A stretch of 64,000 nt of DNA from Kineococcus sp. NBC_00420 (GTDB lineage Bacteria; Actinomycetota; Actinomycetes; Actinomycetales; Kineococcaceae): positions 2,294,001 to 2,358,000 of the forward strand of contig NZ_CP107930.1 of assembly GCF_036021035.1 (NCBI RefSeq). Reading direction: 5' to 3'. Positions 20,373 to 54,894 of the stretch are shown piece after piece; position 1 is the first letter of the stretch, and every line of letters starts with the position of its first letter. A model generated the notes under the pieces. The model saw only the letters and a program-made list of their open reading frames with translations. It ran no database searches and was not told the origin of the DNA. The position numbers were made by a program, and so were the translations under genes.

Positions 20373-20385
20373 CGCCCCACCTCAC

Positions 20386-20420
20386 GCGCCCCACCCGTCC
20401 CAGCGGAACGGGTGGGGCGC
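20386..20420. terminator. Rho-independent-type hairpin after the MFS gene
   Basis: Perfect 13-bp arms GCGCCCCACCCGT (20386-20398) and its complement (20408-20420) flank a 9-nt loop, CCCAGCGGA. The inner arm sequence CCACCCGT/ACGGGTGG and the loop CCCAGCGG both recur in dispersed palindrome copy 1, so this may be a deletion derivative of that family. Confidence 0.75.
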
Positions 20421-20444
20421 GGTGGTGCGGCAAGATGGCCCCTC

Positions 20445-26437: not shown

Positions 26438-27049
26438 ATGGCTGCGCAGATGAGCTACCCGATCCCCTACGTCGTCGAGACCACCGCCCGCGGGGAACGC
26501 ACCTCCGACGTGTTCAGCCGGTTGCTGTCGGACCGGATCGTGTTCCTGCACGGCGAGATCGACGACGGGGTCGCGAACGTCGTCATCGCCCAGCTGGTGC
26601 ACCTCGCCTCGGAGTCGCCGACGGCGGAGATCAACCTCTACATCAACTCCCCCGGCGGTTCCGCGACGGCGTTGATGGCGATCTACGACACCGTGCAGTT
26701 CGTCCAGCCGGACGTGGCGACGTTCTGCGTCGGGCAGGCGGCGTCGGCCGCCGCGGTGCTGCTGGCCGCCGGCGCTCCTGGGAAGCGCTCGGTGCTGGAG
26801 CACTCGCGGGTCCTGCTGCACCAACCGTCGGGCGGTGCGCAGGGAACGGCCGCGGACCTGCAGATCCAGGCGAAGGAGGTGCTGCGGATCCGCTCGGAGA
26901 TCGAGGAGGTCCTCGCGCGGCACACCGGTCACCCGGTCGAGCGGCTGCGCGCCGACCTCGACCGCGACCTCGTCCTGCCGGGCGCCGCGGCCGTCGCCTA
27001 CGGCGTCGCCGACCGGGTGATCACCCCGCCCCCGGCGCTGCCCGCGTGA
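26438..27049 (+). CDS. clpP: ATP-dependent Clp protease proteolytic subunit (ClpP2)
   Basis: A 203-residue ClpP. Catalytic Ser in [14 protein letters not shown], His in [12 protein letters not shown] and Asp in [12 protein letters not shown]. The N-terminus is shorter and different from ClpP1: [24 protein letters not shown] is close to typical ClpP2. It begins one base after the clpP1 stop, so expression is coupled. Confidence 0.94.
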
Positions 27050-27059
27050 GAGCGGTTCG

Positions 27060-27416
27060 TCAGGCGACGAGGGAGAGGGAGACCGTGGGCGCGGTGGACG
27101 CGGGGGCGAAGGCCGTCGCGCTCGTCACGTCGGTGACGTAGGAACCGGTGCGCTGCAGCAGTTCCGCGAGCGGGAGTTCCAGGGCCGAGCAGATCGCGGC
27201 CAGCACCTCCGAGGAGGGTTCCTTGCGCCCGCGCTCGACCTCGGAGAGGTGCGGCAGCGACACCCTGGCCCTGACCGCGACGTCGGAGAGCGTGCGGTGC
27301 TGCTCCAGCCGTTCGGTGCGCAGGACCACGCCGATCGCGTGACGCAGCAGCGGATCCGGGCGACGACGGACCCGGTCACGGGACGCACGGGTCGGGACCA
27401 GGGTCAGCTTCGGCAC
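27060..27416 (-). CDS. clgR: XRE-family regulator, ClgR-like
   Basis: A 118-residue regulator. The HTH (residues about 25-85) reads [64 protein letters not shown], closely matching the ClgR pattern V(S)LxxLSEVERGxKExSSExL. ClgR activates clp genes in Actinobacteria and is itself degraded by ClpP. It is convergent with clpP1-clpP2, 10 bp away. A 14-bp palindrome (27430-27443) sits upstream of its start. Confidence 0.8.
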
Positions 27417-27466: not shown

Positions 27467-27509
27467 CCGCCGCGCTGCTGTCCGCTCAGGGCGGACAGCA
27501 GCGCGGCGG
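27467..27509. terminator. Strong hairpin terminator of the GAF-chemoreceptor gene
   Basis: Perfect 19-bp arms (27467-27485 and 27491-27509) around a 5-nt loop, 15 bp downstream of the chemoreceptor stop on the minus strand. It also separates that gene from clgR. Confidence 0.85.
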
Positions 27510-27523
27510 GTTCTGGGGGTGCG

Positions 27524-29077
27524 TCAGCGACGCTCGTAGACCGTCGCCATCTCGACCTGCTCGTCGATGACGTCGGAGATGCGGGCCTGGACGGTGTCGA
27601 GCTCGCGGATGATCGCCGCGGTCTCGTTGATGCCGCTGGACACCGCGTTGCTCGAGGCCTGGATCCCGGCGATCTGCTGCGCGACCCGCTGGGTGGCGTC
27701 CGCCGTCTCCCGCGCCAGGTCCTTGACCTCGCTGGCGACGACGGCGAAACCGCGGCCGAGCTCACCGGCACGGGCGGCCTCGATGGTCGCGTTGAGCGCG
27801 AGGAGGTTCGTCTGGTCGGCGATGGCGGAGATGATCTTGATGACCTCCCCCACGGCGGCCGAGGCCTGGGTGAGGGCGTCGACCTCACCGGTCATGTTCG
27901 AGGCCTGCCCGACGGCGGCGTCGGCGACCCGGCCGGCGTCCGTGACGGCGTCGCGCAACCGGGAGACGGTGTCCAGCAGCGCCGCCGAGGACGCCGCGTC
28001 GTTCTCCGAACGGCGCAGGACGTCGAGGCGTTGGGACACCAGCTGCTGCACGTTGCGCAGCGCCGAGGAGCGGGACTCGGAGAGGTCGATGACGTCGGTG
28101 GTGAAGAAGTCCATCGTCCCCACGACCTGCCCCTCGGACACGATCGGGAAGCAGACCCCGGACTTCACCCCGGCACGCTGCGCCGCGGGGGCCCGCACGC
28201 AGTCGGTCATCTCGGCGAGGTCGCGGACGAAGACGAGGTCACGGGCCCGCCAGGCACGACCGGAGAGGCCGACCCCCTCGGCGAAGCTCGCGGACAGGGT
28301 GACCCGGCGGAACTCCTCGCCGGCCGAACCCGACTCCACCTGGAACTTGAGGGTGTTGCTGGCGGGGTCGAGCGCCCAGTAGGACCCGTAGGCCCAGCCG
28401 AAGGCCTCGCGCACCGTCTCCAGCGCCCGGCGCAGCGCGCCGTCCTGGTTGCGGGCGTCACCGACGCTGGACACGACGGACGTGACGGCGGCCCGGTCGT
28501 TGAGGGTCTCCTGCAGGCCTGCGGTGTCGAGCGCGCGCCGACGGGCGTGCGCAGCGACGCGGGCGATGGCCCGCCACTTCTCGGCGCGGCCGCCGAAGAA
28601 CGGCAGCTCGTTGTAGGAGTAGTACTCCTGCAGGCCGATGACCCGGCCGTCCTCGACGATGGGGACCTTGGCGCCGCTGCCCGCCCCGGCCGCGTGGGCC
28701 AGGTGCCAGCGCGGGGAGTTCAGGGCGTCCGGGGTGGCGTCGCACTGCACCGGTTCGCGCGTCGAGATGGCCCGACCGCCGCAGCCCTCCCCCGGCGTGA
28801 TCAACGTCGAGCGGGACCCGGCGAGGGCGGGGGCCAGCGAACCCACCTCACCGGCGAGGCGGAACCGGCCGTCGGGACCCGGCACCCAGATCGCTCCGTA
28901 GCAGAGGTCCAGCGCCTCGACGAGCGCCCGGACGCAGGCCAGCTGCGCCTCGAGCTCGGTGGTGATGCCGGAGTCGAGGGCCGCGAGGACCGCCTCCAGC
29001 GCCTCGACGTCGCGGGGCATCGGACCGGTGAAGACCGCGCCGCCGGCCGAGACCGAGCCCTTCTTGCGTCCGAACAC
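27524..29077 (-). CDS. Soluble methyl-accepting chemotaxis protein with two GAF domains
   Basis: A 517-residue cytoplasmic receptor with no membrane helix. Two GAF domains cover about 30-185 and 215-345; [19 protein letters not shown] and [19 protein letters not shown] are matching blocks of each. A signalling coiled coil follows, with the MCP hairpin tip [41 protein letters not shown] (residues about 435-475). The usual CheR/CheB methylation helices and HAMP are missing. It probably senses an intracellular ligand, redox state or c-nucleotide. A sigma-28-like promoter and a strong terminator make it a single-gene unit. Confidence 0.93.
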
Positions 29078-29159: not shown

Positions 29160-29663
29160 TCAGGACAGGTGTTCGCGCATCGCGGCGAGCCCGCGGTGGG
29201 CGTTGCTGCGCACGGTGCCCGTGGTGACGTCGAGCAGGTCGGCGATCTGCTCGTCGGAGTAGTCCTCGAAGTGGCGCAGCACGAGGACCGTCCGCTGCTT
29301 GGTCGGCAGCTTGCGCAGCGCCTCGAGCAGCGCGTCCCGGTCGGCGATCTGGTTCGTGGAGTCCGCGAGACCGGCGTCGGGGAGGACCTCCGTCGCGTGC
29401 TCCCGGCGGGCCGCCCGGCGCCAGAACGACGTCGAGGCGTTGACCACCATGCGGTTGACGTAGGCGACCGGGTCGTCGGCCGTGCTGACCCGGCCCCACT
29501 TGAGCAGGGCCTTCGCCAGCACGTCCTGCACGACGTCCTCGGCCGTGTGCGGGTCGCGCAGCAACCCGCGCGCCAGGCGGACCAGCGCAGGACCACGGGC
29601 CTCGACGAACTCCTCGAAGGTCAACCTGGCGACCTCCTGGTCACTGCGGGTGCTCACGGTCAT
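29160..29663 (-). CDS. SigE-family ECF RNA polymerase sigma factor
   Basis: A 167-residue sigma-70 family protein. Region 2 holds FEEFVEARGPALVRLARGLLRDPHTAEDVVQDVLAKALLKWGRV, and region 4 holds LRKLPTKQRTVLVLRHFEDYSDEQIADLLDVTTGTVRSNAHRGLAAMREHL. The spacing and RLARGLL/DLLD motifs match the actinobacterial SigE-family ECFs. ATG 29663 overlaps the stop of the upstream membrane-protein gene (ATGA), so the pair is translationally coupled with the membrane protein first. A symmetric ECF-type promoter lies upstream of the operon. Confidence 0.93.
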   Translation of the reverse strand: MTVSTRSDQEVARLTFEEFVEARGPALVRLARGLLRDPHTAEDVVQDVLAKALLKWGRVSTADDPVAYVNRMVVNASTSFWRRAARREHATEVLPDAGLADSTNQIADRDALLEALRKLPTKQRTVLVLRHFEDYSDEQIADLLDVTTGTVRSNAHRGLAAMREHLS

Positions 29664-30487
29664 CGTGGCGCACCGCCCGCGTCCTGCAGCGCCGCGGCCT
29701 TGGCGAGGGCGGTCGTCGCGAGGTCGGCGGCCTGGGTGAGGGCGTCGCTGCTGGTCGGCTGGTAGCTCTCCAGGTCGACCCGCACGACGAGCTGTCCCTG
29801 GCGCGCGACGACCGCGGAACGCCACATGGGGTTGGTGCCGGACTGCTGGTACAGCGCCGTTCCGGCGACGACCTGGTCGGCCCGGACACCGACCTGGTCC
29901 GCGAGCTGCCACGGCGCGGTCTCGTCGCCCTGCTGCCTGCACGCCTGTGCGTCGGTCTCCACGCCGGCCATCCAGTCCTCGGCGGCCGCACCCCGGAACA
30001 GCATCACCCGCACCGAGGCGTTCTCGGGATAGGGCTGGGCCACCGACGGCGTCCCGCCCCAGCTGAGACCGCGTGAGTCGACGACGCTCGCCGCTCCGTC
30101 GTAGGCCACGTCCGTGCAGAAACCGGTGTCGGTCGTCGGGGCGGGGTCGTCCAGGGGCTCCACCCCCGGTAGGACGGCCGTCGCCTCCGGCGTCGTCGGC
30201 AGCAGCGCGTCCGGGATGGCCGCCACGGTGCTCGGCGACGGGGTCGCCGTCGCGATCGGGACGACGGTCGGCGGCGTGCCGGGCCACTGGGAGATCCCGA
30301 TCGGCACCCCGAGGGCGAGGACCGCGACGACGCCGGCCATCCCCTGCCGACGCCGTCGGATCGTGCGGGCGCGCCCCCGCGCACCCGCCGCGAGAGCGTT
30401 CACGTCGACCCCGGCGTCCGCCGATCCTGCGCGCTGCAACGCGCGGACGACCTCCGCCTCGTCGACTCCCCTCCTGTGCTCGCTCAT
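29660..30487 (-). CDS. Membrane-anchored protein, putative anti-sigma partner
   Basis: A 275-residue protein. The N-terminal 45 residues are cytoplasmic and helical (VDEAEVVRALQRAGSADAGVDVNALAAGARGRARTIRRRR), followed by one membrane helix GMAGVVAVLALGVPIGIS and a Pro/Thr-rich linker, then an extracytoplasmic domain with two Cys (GFCTDV, QACRQQ) that may form a disulfide. This topology, and coupling to an ECF sigma gene, suggests a sensor or anti-sigma protein, though no ZAS motif is present. It precedes the sigma gene. RBS AGAGGGGG supports ATG 30487. Confidence 0.7.
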   Translation of the reverse strand: MSEHRRGVDEAEVVRALQRAGSADAGVDVNALAAGARGRARTIRRRRQGMAGVVAVLALGVPIGISQWPGTPPTVVPIATATPSPSTVAAIPDALLPTTPEATAVLPGVEPLDDPAPTTDTGFCTDVAYDGAASVVDSRGLSWGGTPSVAQPYPENASVRVMLFRGAAAEDWMAGVETDAQACRQQGDETAPWQLADQVGVRADQVVAGTALYQQSGTNPMWRSAVVARQGQLVVRVDLESYQPTSSDALTQAADLATTALAKAAALQDAGGAPR

Positions 30488-30527: not shown

Positions 30528-30565
30528 CGTGCAACAGACGCGCTGCTCCGTGCGTCTGTTGCACG
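30528..30565. promoter_or_regulatory. Symmetric bidirectional ECF-type promoter
   Basis: A perfect 14-bp inverted repeat, CGTGCAACAGACGC (30528-30541) and its complement (30552-30565), with a 10-bp centre. Each strand contains GCAAC, then exactly 17 bp, then CGTCTGTT, resembling ECF -35 (GGAAC-like) and -10 (CGTC) elements. The two promoters interlock within the palindrome. One reads toward the sigma operon, the other toward the lipoprotein. Confidence 0.55.
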
Positions 30566-31287
30566 TGAGCTCCAGGAAATTCACCCAGCTCCTGACCGTC
30601 GCGACGATGACCGTGGCCCTCGGGGCGTGCAGCGCCGGGTCGGGCGACTCGCCCGCTGTCCAGCCCTCCAGCACCAGCCCCCGTCCCAGCAGCGCGAGCA
30701 GCCCCACGACGACGGCACCGGTCGCCGATCCGGCAGCGCAGGAGGCCCTGCCGCAGCTGGCCCGGCAGCAGGGTGCGCAGACGTCGGCGCTCGCGCCCGC
30801 CGTGGGTCAGGACTCCCCCGACCTCGCGGTGCTGGCGAGCACGACCGACGACATCAGCACCTCGATCTCGTTCTGGGCCTGGGACGGGTCGGCCTTCCAG
30901 CCGGCGGGGAGCGTCACCGCCGACGAACCCCTGCTGCCCCGACGCTCGCCGGAGTGGCACTACCTGACCGGCGGTCTCTACCCCGACGCCGTCGTCTACC
31001 TGCAGGGCGGCTCGATGAGCGGCGGCGTCGACGCCGTCATCGCCCGCCACGAGACCGACGGCTCGTGGCGGTTCGTCCCGCTGGAGGGACAGAGCGGGGA
31101 CGGGATCGCCGTCGAGGACGACGTGTACGCGCACAACCCCGTCTTCGACGAGGGGTTCACCTTCGTGACCCGTGTGCAGGGGGGCGGTCCGGTGGCGGTG
31201 ACCTACTGGCGCTACGAGGAGGGCGCCGGGAGGAGCTGGTTCACCCGCTCCCCCGCCCCGGACCCCGAGGCTACGAGAACCCCGTGA
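30565..31287 (+). CDS. Secreted lipoprotein, unknown function
   Basis: A 240-residue lipoprotein. The signal peptide ends VALGAC|S (lipobox L-G-A-C, Cys about residue 20), followed by a Ser/Pro/Thr-rich linker and a globular domain from about residue 60. That domain has beta-strand motifs SISFWAWDGSAF and AVTYWRYEEGAG. GTG 30565 is chosen; no Shine-Dalgarno exists and the start coincides with the last base of the symmetric promoter, so the mRNA is likely leaderless. It is predicted to belong to the regulon of the adjacent ECF sigma factor. No family is recognised. Confidence 0.75.
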   Translation: MSSRKFTQLLTVATMTVALGACSAGSGDSPAVQPSSTSPRPSSASSPTTTAPVADPAAQEALPQLARQQGAQTSALAPAVGQDSPDLAVLASTTDDISTSISFWAWDGSAFQPAGSVTADEPLLPRRSPEWHYLTGGLYPDAVVYLQGGSMSGGVDAVIARHETDGSWRFVPLEGQSGDGIAVEDDVYAHNPVFDEGFTFVTRVQGGGPVAVTYWRYEEGAGRSWFTRSPAPDPEATRTP

Positions 31288-31392: not shown

Positions 31393-31421
31393 CTCAAGCA
31401 ACTAGTGCGGTACGTCGAACT
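31393..31421 (+). promoter_or_regulatory. Possible sigma-28-type promoter of the second chemoreceptor
   Basis: CTCAAG (31393-31398) -N15- GTCGAACT (31414-31421). The -35 and spacing equal those at 29125-29153; the -10 keeps G-CGA but is otherwise weak. The expected start of transcription is near 31428, next to ATG 31423/31429. Confidence 0.4.
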
Positions 31422-31422
31422 G

Positions 31423-33015
31423 ATGCACATGCGCAAACGACTGGGTGACCTGAAGATCGCCGGCAAGCTCGCTCTCGGCTTCGGGGCCGTCTGCCTCCTC
31501 CTGATCGCGGCGGTCGGCCTGGGCGTGCAGACCCTGCACACCTCGCAGGCCACCATCGCGGCGATGTCGGACGTCGTCGTCCCCGGCGTGCAGTACAGCG
31601 GGACCGTGAAGTACGCCTTCGCCCAGACGCGGTTGGACCTGACCTCCACCGCGCTGGCCTCCGACCCGGCCGCGCTGGGCACGGCGCAGTCGGCGCTGGC
31701 CTCCGACGACGCCACGCTCGACACGGCGTGGAAGGGCTACCTCGACACCTCGCCCGTCTCCACCCAGGCCGACCGCGACTCCTTCGCCGCGGACCTGGCG
31801 GCGTTCCGCGAGGCCCGCAAGGACCTCGTGGCCGCCGCGACCGCCGGAAACCTCGACGCCTTCAAGGCGGCGCGCGACAGCGAGATCCTGCCCCTGGCCA
31901 CCCGGATCAACACCACGCTGGACCGCATCCAGAAGGCCGAGGTCGACAACGCCAAGGCCACCTCGGCCCTGGGGGCCGCGCGCTACCACCAGTCGTTCCT
32001 GCTCCTCGTCGGGCTCGGTGTGGTGGCGCTGCTGGTGGCCGCGGTCATCGCCGTCGTCGTGGCCCGCTCCATCACCCGCCCGCTGGCGCGGACGGCGGCC
32101 GTCGTCCGGGGGCTGGCCGAAGGTCGCCTGGACCAGCGCGTGGCTCACCCCGCCGCCGACGAGATCGGCCAGCTCGCCCACGCCGTCGACACGACCATGG
32201 ACAAGCTGACCGCGACCCTCACCGAGATCACCGCCACCGCCGACGTCCTGGCCGGCTCCAGCGAGGAACTCTCCGCCGTGGCCACCCAGCTCTCCTCCGG
32301 CGCCGAGGAGTCCGCCGCCCAGACCCAGGTCGTCTCCGCGGCCGCCGAGGAGATCAGCGCCAACATCGGGACCGTGGCCGCTGCCGGTGAGCAGATGACC
32401 GCGGCCATCGGTGAGATCGCCACCTCCACCGCCGACGCCTCGACCACGGCAGCCTCCGCCGTCGGCGCCGTCGACGGTGCCGTCCAGACCCTGCAGCGCC
32501 TCTCGACGTCCAGCCAGGAGATCGGCGACGTCGTCAAGCTCATCACCTCGATCGCCCAGCAGACCAACCTCCTCGCCCTCAACGCCACCATCGAAGCGGC
32601 CCGCGCCGGGGAGATGGGCAAGGGCTTCGCCGTCGTCGCCGGTGAGGTCAAGGAGCTGGCCCAGCAGACCGCGCGCGCCACCGAGTCCATCACCGCCCGC
32701 GTCGCCACCACCCAGAACGACGTCGACCAGGTGGCCGGTGCCATCGGCCAGATCACCGAGGTCATCGCCCGCATCGACGCCCTGCAGTCCACCATCGCCG
32801 CCGCCGTCGAGGAACAGTCCGCCACCACGAACGAGATGGTCCGCAACGTCAGCGAGGTGTCCACCGGCAGTCAAGAGATCGCGCTGAACATCTCCGGTGT
32901 CGCAGCCGCTGCCGAGCAGACCACCAGTGGTGCCCGGCAGACCGCCACCACGGCCTCGGAGGTCTCCCGGGCCGCGACCCGCCTGAAGCAGCTCACCGGC
33001 GCCTTCACCCTCTGA
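31423..33015 (+). CDS. Transmembrane methyl-accepting chemotaxis protein
   Basis: A protein of about 530 residues. The N-terminal helix [20 protein letters not shown] enters the membrane, a four-helix-bundle sensor (about 40-195) follows, then a second membrane helix [26 protein letters not shown] domain ([20 protein letters not shown]) leads to the signalling hairpin with tip [36 protein letters not shown]. It senses an external ligand and controls CheA. Start candidates are GTG 31405, ATG 31423 and ATG 31429; the last two fit the promoter position, and [19 protein letters not shown] is a usual MCP beginning. Confidence 0.93.
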
Positions 33016-54844: not shown

Positions 54845-54894
54845 GACGCAGGACGGCCCCGGAACGCACCCGCGTTCCGGGGCCGTCCTGCGTC
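54845..54894. terminator. Perfect 23-bp hairpin terminator
   Basis: Arms 54845-54867 and 54872-54894 pair perfectly around the 4-nt loop ACCC. It starts 12 bp after the MFS stop codon. It is the strongest terminator in the window. Confidence 0.93.

Follow-up and report, generated by a model that had tools for sequence, protein, structure and literature searches.

Two Putative Divergent ECF Promoters Interlocked in a 38-bp Palindromic Element of Kineococcus

Introduction

The 38-bp palindrome that separates an ECF sigma operon from a divergent lipoprotein gene in Kineococcus sp. NBC_00420 raises the question of whether such an element is an operator, a hairpin or a promoter region read in two directions. 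The element (Table 1) lies in a window of 64,000 nucleotides (the whole stretch of DNA that was analysed) of a 5.43-Mb chromosome, with the sigma operon on the minus strand and the lipoprotein gene on the plus strand. An initial annotation had proposed that it consists of two interlocked, divergent ECF promoters, one of which would produce a leaderless mRNA.

According to a passage of PMC8103513, ECF sigma factors read AAC at -35 and CGT at -10, a rule taken from an early ECF subset. Most ECF operons are called autoregulated in that passage, while elsewhere in the same source the predicted share of autoregulated ECFs is only about 55%. The spacing of ECF promoters is described as strict in an excerpt of PMC6411747, with SigH of M. 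tuberculosis being most active with a 17-bp spacer.

Table 1. Coordinates of the features of the locus within the 64-kb window.
Feature	Position	Strand	Remarks
SigE-family (TIGR02983) ECF sigma gene	29160..29663	-	ATG overlaps the preceding stop (ATGA)
First sigma-operon gene, membrane protein	29660..30487	-	ATG at 30487; candidate anti-sigma factor
Whole palindromic element	30528..30565	no strand	Perfect 14-bp inverted repeat, 10-bp centre
Predicted sigma-operon transcription start	30528..30530	-	Placed by promoter geometry
Lipoprotein-promoter -35, GTGCAAC	30529..30535	+	From the sequence; 11/11 core match at 4/4 lipoprotein loci
Sigma-operon-promoter -10, CGTC	30537..30540	-	17 bp from its -35; 10/11 loci
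Lipoprotein-promoter -10, CGTC	30553..30556	+	17 bp from its -35
Sigma-operon-promoter -35, GTGCAAC	30558..30564	-	GTGCAAC at 9, GTGTAAC at 1 of 11 loci
Predicted lipoprotein transcription start (A30563 or G30565)	30563..30565	+	At or 2 nt before the GTG; placed by promoter geometry
Lipoprotein gene	30565..31287	+	Lipobox ...VALGAC; GTG start at the last base of the palindrome

Sequence and Geometry of the Element

The two arms of the repeat (30528-30541, CGTGCAACAGACGC, and 30552-30565, GCGTCTGTTGCACG) were complementary at 14 of 14 bases, in agreement with the perfect 14-bp inverted repeat with a 10-bp centre that had been described, and the arrangement GCAAC, 17 bp, CGTCTGTT was found on both strands, again as annotated. 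The core of this arrangement could be written as GTGCAAC-N17-CGTC on each strand of the 38 bp. Both strands thus carry AAC within the -35 and CGT within the -10 element, and the spacer falls in the range of approximately 16-18 bp of ECF promoters; in a scan that permitted spacers of 15-19, it was 17 bp at each of the ten loci with the motif and, at four of four, on both strands. Of the -10 element first proposed, the "TGTT" part was found to lie outside the conserved -10, only CGTC being kept at loci that lack the divergent gene.

Each arm is laid out as the -35 of one promoter (GTGCAAC), one base, and then the -10 of the opposite promoter (GACG on that strand). The idea that an arm doubles as a -35 and, in reverse, as a -10 holds in that both elements are present in each arm, but not at the level of bases, the core elements of the two promoters having zero bases in common; they are interlocked rather than overlapping. 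The two CGTC elements are separate, with 12 bp between them, and the predicted starts are 33-37 bp apart.

The level expected by chance was evaluated with 40 first-order Markov copies of the 64-kb window, in which perfect 14-bp inverted repeats (loop up to 40) had a mean of 0.075 per 64 kb, compared with four in the real window. The other three long perfect inverted repeats (20385-20421, 27467-27509 and 54845-54894) have short loops and are GC-rich hairpins. When the core of the opposite copy was matched across the window, the background mean was 3.08 of 11 bases and the element was the only site with 11 of 11. More uncommon than the inverted repeat is the specific pattern GTGCAAC-N22-GTTGCAC, which occurred at a single place in the source genome, with 0 matches for the reversed control.

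Genes on Both Sides of the Element

The sigma factor scored 177.4 bits on TIGR02983 (cut-off 141.55), which places it in the SigE family, and it also matched NCBIfam SigE-fam_strep. Counted from the predicted start, the leader of the sigma operon would be about 40 nt long, and the ATG of the first gene is preceded by a purine-rich ribosome site, GAGGGGG. The product of this gene has a short cytoplasmic part rich in arginine, a single membrane helix assigned by reading, and an extracellular domain. Membrane anchoring and co-encoding with the sigma factor, as expected of an anti-sigma factor, were both found, the former from the helix assigned by reading and the latter from the ATGA overlap; no anti-sigma family of Pfam or NCBIfam was matched. 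The predicted model (mean pLDDT of 73.5) presented an extracellular domain resembling the PknH sensor 4esq, with an E value of 1.1e-5 and TM scores of 0.47 by query and 0.64 by target length. A fold similar to that of a mycobacterial kinase sensor is thus predicted in a protein of a sigma operon and not in a kinase. A match to PF14032 was displayed by one of seven orthologs (E = 4.4e-4), and none by the protein of the window itself. The membrane protein diverges faster than the sigma factor, with identities of 29-57% where aligned against 64-86%. The protein is regarded here as a candidate sensory anti-sigma factor.

On the plus strand, the last base of the repeat, G30565, was confirmed to be the first base of the lipoprotein GTG. 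Predicted transcription starts were placed by ECF promoter geometry. In all four lipoprotein orthologs the start codon lies 8-11 bases from CGTC; the distance to the first GTG is 8 nt in three (G000, G006a and G009) and 9 nt in the fourth (G010), and in G009 an in-frame ATG directly follows the GTG. All four proteins present basic residues and a lipobox (GAC, AAC, AAC and AAC at the cysteine) within 22-25 residues. No purine-rich ribosome site was seen by reading ahead of any of the four starts, nor was an alternative start codon with such a site seen in the window sequence. Because of the short distance between CGTC and the start codon in the four orthologs, the lipoprotein mRNA is predicted to be leaderless or nearly so, and the leaderless start that had been suggested for this gene gained support from the near-constancy of that distance in orthologs that are otherwise diverged. 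The lipoprotein itself had no significant family match, and its model was poor (mean pLDDT of 60), with no fold match at E values up to 0.001. Searching with a lipoprotein profile revealed weak, partial matches at other places in G003 (E = 3.8e-6, positions 8-94 of 237) and in G001 (E = 6.9e-4, positions 2-54), which were not counted as orthologs.

Further out, the locus is flanked by two chemotaxis-type proteins, one on the minus strand at 27524-29077 (GAF and MCP signal domains) and one on the plus strand at 31405-33015 (4HB, HAMP and MCP signal domains). A ClpP protease gene (plus) and a Cro/C1-type HTH gene (minus) are convergent at 26438-27416.

Comparison within Kineococcus

The comparison of both arms in relatives, which had been put forward as a check, was carried out on a sample of 11 Kineococcus genomes, and both arms were found to behave as expected of promoters. 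A single-sequence search located the membrane gene in ten of the 11 genomes, at 11 loci, a twelfth and partial match in G002 (E = 6.7e-4) being left out of the set; the sigma gene was downstream at all 11. GTGCAAC (nine loci) or GTGTAAC (one locus) followed by N17-CGTC was found upstream of the sigma operon at ten of these loci, beginning 52-145 bp ahead of the membrane-gene match, while at the G007 locus the motif was present on neither strand. The lipoprotein ortholog occurred in four of the 11 genomes (G000, G006a, G009 and G010), always divergent to the sigma operon. At all four of these loci the opposite-strand copy was identical to the core at 11 of 11 bases. At the six loci that bear the motif but lack the lipoprotein gene, the corresponding counts were 5, 7, 4, 3, 1 and 4 of 11. 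The proposal of two divergent ECF promoters is supported by this distribution, in which the sigma-operon copy is nearly constant and the opposite copy is complete only beside the lipoprotein gene. For ten independent loci, the split of four of four against none of six would have a probability of 1/210 by our own arithmetic, a value that is only indicative because the loci are related; the palindrome-bearing genomes, four in number, are likewise few and related. Consistently, GTGCAAC-N22-GTTGCAC was found once each in exactly the four genomes with the lipoprotein gene, and the reversed control was found in none of the 11.

Alignment of the four elements revealed 22 invariant core bases and a centre of fixed length in which 10 of 12 bases are variable. 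The arms pair at 16, 16, 13 and 19 of 19 positions, and this imperfect symmetry in relatives suggests that the constraint acts on the two copies of the motif and not on the dyad itself. The highest of these values belongs to Kineococcus sp. TRM81007 (G009, C56; L008, bases 1402-1439), in which the whole 38 bp form a perfect palindrome with 19-bp arms and no loop; the reading as two motifs needs only 22 of these bases.

The history of the opposite copy was also considered. On the sigma tree, its presence was not clustered (228 of 500 shuffles were as low) and five of eight inner branches were open, so the tree gave no answer on gain versus loss of the opposite promoter. At the corresponding position G002 and G004 have GAGCAGC, which could be a decayed -35 or a -35 not yet formed. 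A profile of the membrane protein matched all 12 genomes of the family in the data set, some of them weakly. Scanning of six additional or repeated loci gave GTGTAAC-N17-CGTC at L197 (a second copy in G005) and L201 (the G005 locus already counted), and no motif from -600 to +30, with two mismatches allowed, at L195 (the G007 locus), L196 (in G071, which belongs to another genus of the family), L199 (G008) and L202 (G001).

Distribution outside the Genus

The double motif, GCAAC-N-GACG-N8-16-CGTC-N-GTTGC, was present in five of 396 genomes of the order, namely at the four Kineococcus loci (12 central bases) and in G124 (16 central bases). In genome_contigs, 94 stretches matched the double motif, and the following figures refer to the 80 distinct stretches among the matches listed. 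The numbers listed for central lengths from N8 to N16 were 10, 16, 7, 4, 5, 9, 11, 14 and 5, respectively (with one N16 duplicate, L053 being the same as L114). No peak was observed at 12 central bases among the 80, and this absence of a peak at the promoter spacing suggests that the stretches listed are background, apart from two Kineococcus records. These records, from Kineococcus vitellinus T13 and Kineococcus sp. TRM81007, were the only ones among the matches listed with both the sigma operon and the lipoprotein gene; in L133, also among the matches listed, a remote match to the sigma factor lay some 5 kb away from the element. Thus, within the 396 genomes of the order and the genome_contigs matches listed, the element was not found beside the sigma operon outside Kineococcus. 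The duplicated record (L053 = L114) is from Kineosporia babensis and contains a perfect 36-bp palindrome with identical outer bases and four more central bases, in which the spacing of the promoter pair is absent.

The Motif as a Promoter Class

In the source genome, the SigE-family sigma model had 44 matches, nine of them over the cut-off. Among the other 43, 29 loci were scanned, and the exact motif was found within 150 nt upstream of three: L164 and L165, over the cut-off and with a spacer of 18, and L172, below the cut-off and with a spacer of 16. Given 22 matches in 5.43 Mb, the number of exact matches expected in the space upstream of these 29 loci is about 0.01 by our own arithmetic. 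With one mismatch, the motif lay within 220 nt upstream of three more sigma loci (L169, L171 and L177).

The motif with a spacer of 17 was also found before genes for Big_10/YkuD L,D-transpeptidases (L149 in G000 and L157 in G005), a peptidoglycan-binding/YkuD protein (L152) and STAS-domain proteins (L155 in G009 and L154 in G002); ORFs like these were seen by reading in L148, L158 and L159. A small secreted protein follows the motif at L150 and L156, without a family match for the former, and nothing interpretable was found at L151 and L153. The cell-wall genes behind the motif point to a candidate envelope-stress regulon. Against this, the motif was not enriched over the genus (123 matches, against 117 for the reversed control), which means that many single matches are due to chance. 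The spacer of 17 was enriched, accounting for 74 of the 123 matches (33 with 16 and 16 with 18), against 25 of the 117 reversed ones (80 with 16 and 12 with 18), the 74 including some mutual orthologs.

Proposed Mechanism

The palindrome very probably represents two full ECF promoters that share one specificity, point in opposite directions and interlock within 38 bp. The promoter on the minus strand would drive the candidate anti-sigma/sigma operon, in a positive autoregulation, and the promoter on the plus strand would drive the leaderless lipoprotein mRNA. The likeliest polymerase would be the holoenzyme with the operon's own SigE-family ECF sigma. Release of the sigma factor by the membrane protein would allow this holoenzyme to bind the element in either orientation, one of which would amplify the operon while the other would yield the lipoprotein mRNA, and both transcripts would be expected to rise together with free sigma, from one site between them. 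Since a bound polymerase would cover all four elements, the site could serve only one of the two directions at any moment. From the geometry, simultaneous binding of two polymerases appears implausible and mutual exclusion sound, with a regulatory weight that would depend on occupancy. A further proposal is that selection has kept the interlocking as such, with one ECF holoenzyme picking its orientation and with the lipoprotein and the anti-sigma/sigma operon being co-induced yet competing, as in a repressor-free divider or perhaps a brake on autoamplification; this we regard as tentative and on balance doubtful.

Alternative Explanations

The interlocked promoters may be correct as such and be fired, wholly or partly, by another SigE-family paralog. 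Nine SigE-family sigma factors are over the cut-off in the source genome, and the same motif, with spacers of 18, 18 and 16, precedes three sigma genes besides this one, of which two are over the cut-off and one is below it. For Streptomyces SigE, target promoters that depend only partly on the one sigma factor are reported in a part of PMC6767563. Nevertheless, the motif tracks the sigma operon through two diverged sigma clades with a spacer of exactly 17, as autoregulation predicts, and we consider a paralog an improbable alternative, albeit the one with the most in its favor.

Much less probable is that a dimeric DNA-binding protein regulates both genes with the palindrome as its operator, the resemblance to -35 and -10 elements being incidental. 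The strong dyad symmetry, which is perfect over 38 bp in G009, and the location between divergent genes would be typical of such a site, and the HTH (Cro/C1-type) gene at 27060-27416 is 3.1 kb away. However, the immediate neighbours are chemotaxis proteins, and the HTH gene lies past one of them, beside the ClpP gene. The symmetry is imperfect in other species, and the motif in its asymmetric form, with spacers of 16-18, also precedes other ECF sigma genes and envelope genes. Moreover, the loci without the divergent gene keep exactly the -35/-10 half of the element and lack its counterpart. Such a reduction to an exact -35/-10 pair in the absence of the neighbour would be expected of a pair of promoters but not of a dimeric operator.

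The same loci bear on whether only the sigma-operon promoter is functional and the opposite copy a chance or neutral by-product. The sigma-operon direction is indeed the only one present at all ten motif-bearing loci, but the opposite core is complete at every lipoprotein locus and at none of the six others, the lipoprotein start codons are at the matching distance in all four orthologs, and no alternative start codon preceded by a ribosome site was seen in the window sequence, which makes a single functional promoter highly improbable. A hairpin or cruciform acting as terminator, attenuator or nucleoid site is hardly credible, since, although inverted repeats can form hairpins and the 19-bp arms in G009 have no loop, the element lies between divergent genes without a T run, transcripts from the predicted starts would exclude it, and the loop sequence and stem length vary while the motif bases and their spacing are constant. 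The two interlocked promoters are therefore retained as the best explanation of the element.

Comparison with Known Systems

The founding paper on bidirectional sigma-70 promoters, by Warman, Grainger and colleagues, reportedly dates from 2021. A near-symmetric shared -10 and starts usually 18 bp apart are described for these promoters in an excerpt of PMC10268837. A passage of PMC12825309 reports that five bidirectional promoters of E. coli showed no competition at basal activity, that strengthening one -35 raised transcription in that direction and lowered it in the other for all but one of the promoters, and that polymerases competed only when one direction was strengthened or activated. 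As far as these excerpts go (PMC10268837, PMC12825309), the Kineococcus element is similar in its near-symmetric sequence, its two proposed polymerase orientations and its predicted divergent RNAs, and differs in that two full -35/-10 pairs are interlocked without shared core bases and would be read by an ECF sigma. It has neither a shared symmetric -10 nor predicted starts at the usual distance.

To our knowledge, EcfG and the SigE-family sigma factors are unrelated beyond being ECF. In the alphaproteobacterial EcfG locus, as outlined in PMC8103513, nepR-ecfG and the divergent phyR form two units with GSR-dependent promoters, which is comparable in that one ECF sigma serves its own operon and a divergent gene; the passage on this locus is silent on interlocking. 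The autoregulated sigma/anti-sigma operons treated in the same source (PMC8103513) likewise have a matching promoter upstream and, as here, an anti-sigma-like membrane gene co-encoded, whereas in Kineococcus the autoregulatory promoter would be merged with that of a divergent gene and the membrane protein falls outside the anti-sigma families. The SigE regulon of Streptomyces coelicolor, as presented in part of PMC6767563, resembles the candidate regulon in its ECF promoters with 16-17 bp spacers and in its envelope genes, which include L,D-transpeptidases; divergent or bidirectional use is unmentioned in that part, and the Kineococcus sigma factor is likened to SigE through NCBIfam SigE-fam_strep and not through orthology.

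Bidirectional sigma-70 promoters and an ECF sigma driving its own operon together with a divergent gene (EcfG/PhyR) were thus already known. No interlocked ECF promoter pair was found among the titles and abstract openings listed from the open-licence literature, and a palindrome that interlocks two full ECF promoters, of which one is autoregulatory and one gives a leaderless mRNA, would to that extent be new. The analysis also provides a predicted motif and a first list of targets for an uncharacterised SigE-family sigma factor. If transcription confirms the proposal, the element would be a minimal device that needs no repressor: at one site, one sigma factor would switch between its own operon and a gene facing the other way. 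It would also be a clean system for measuring polymerase competition and the effect of this competition on autoregulation and noise, because the arms can be altered singly and sister species offer natural examples both with the opposite promoter and lacking it. Bidirectional promoters would then extend from the shared -10 symmetry of sigma-70 to the full interlocking of -35 and -10 elements by an ECF sigma.
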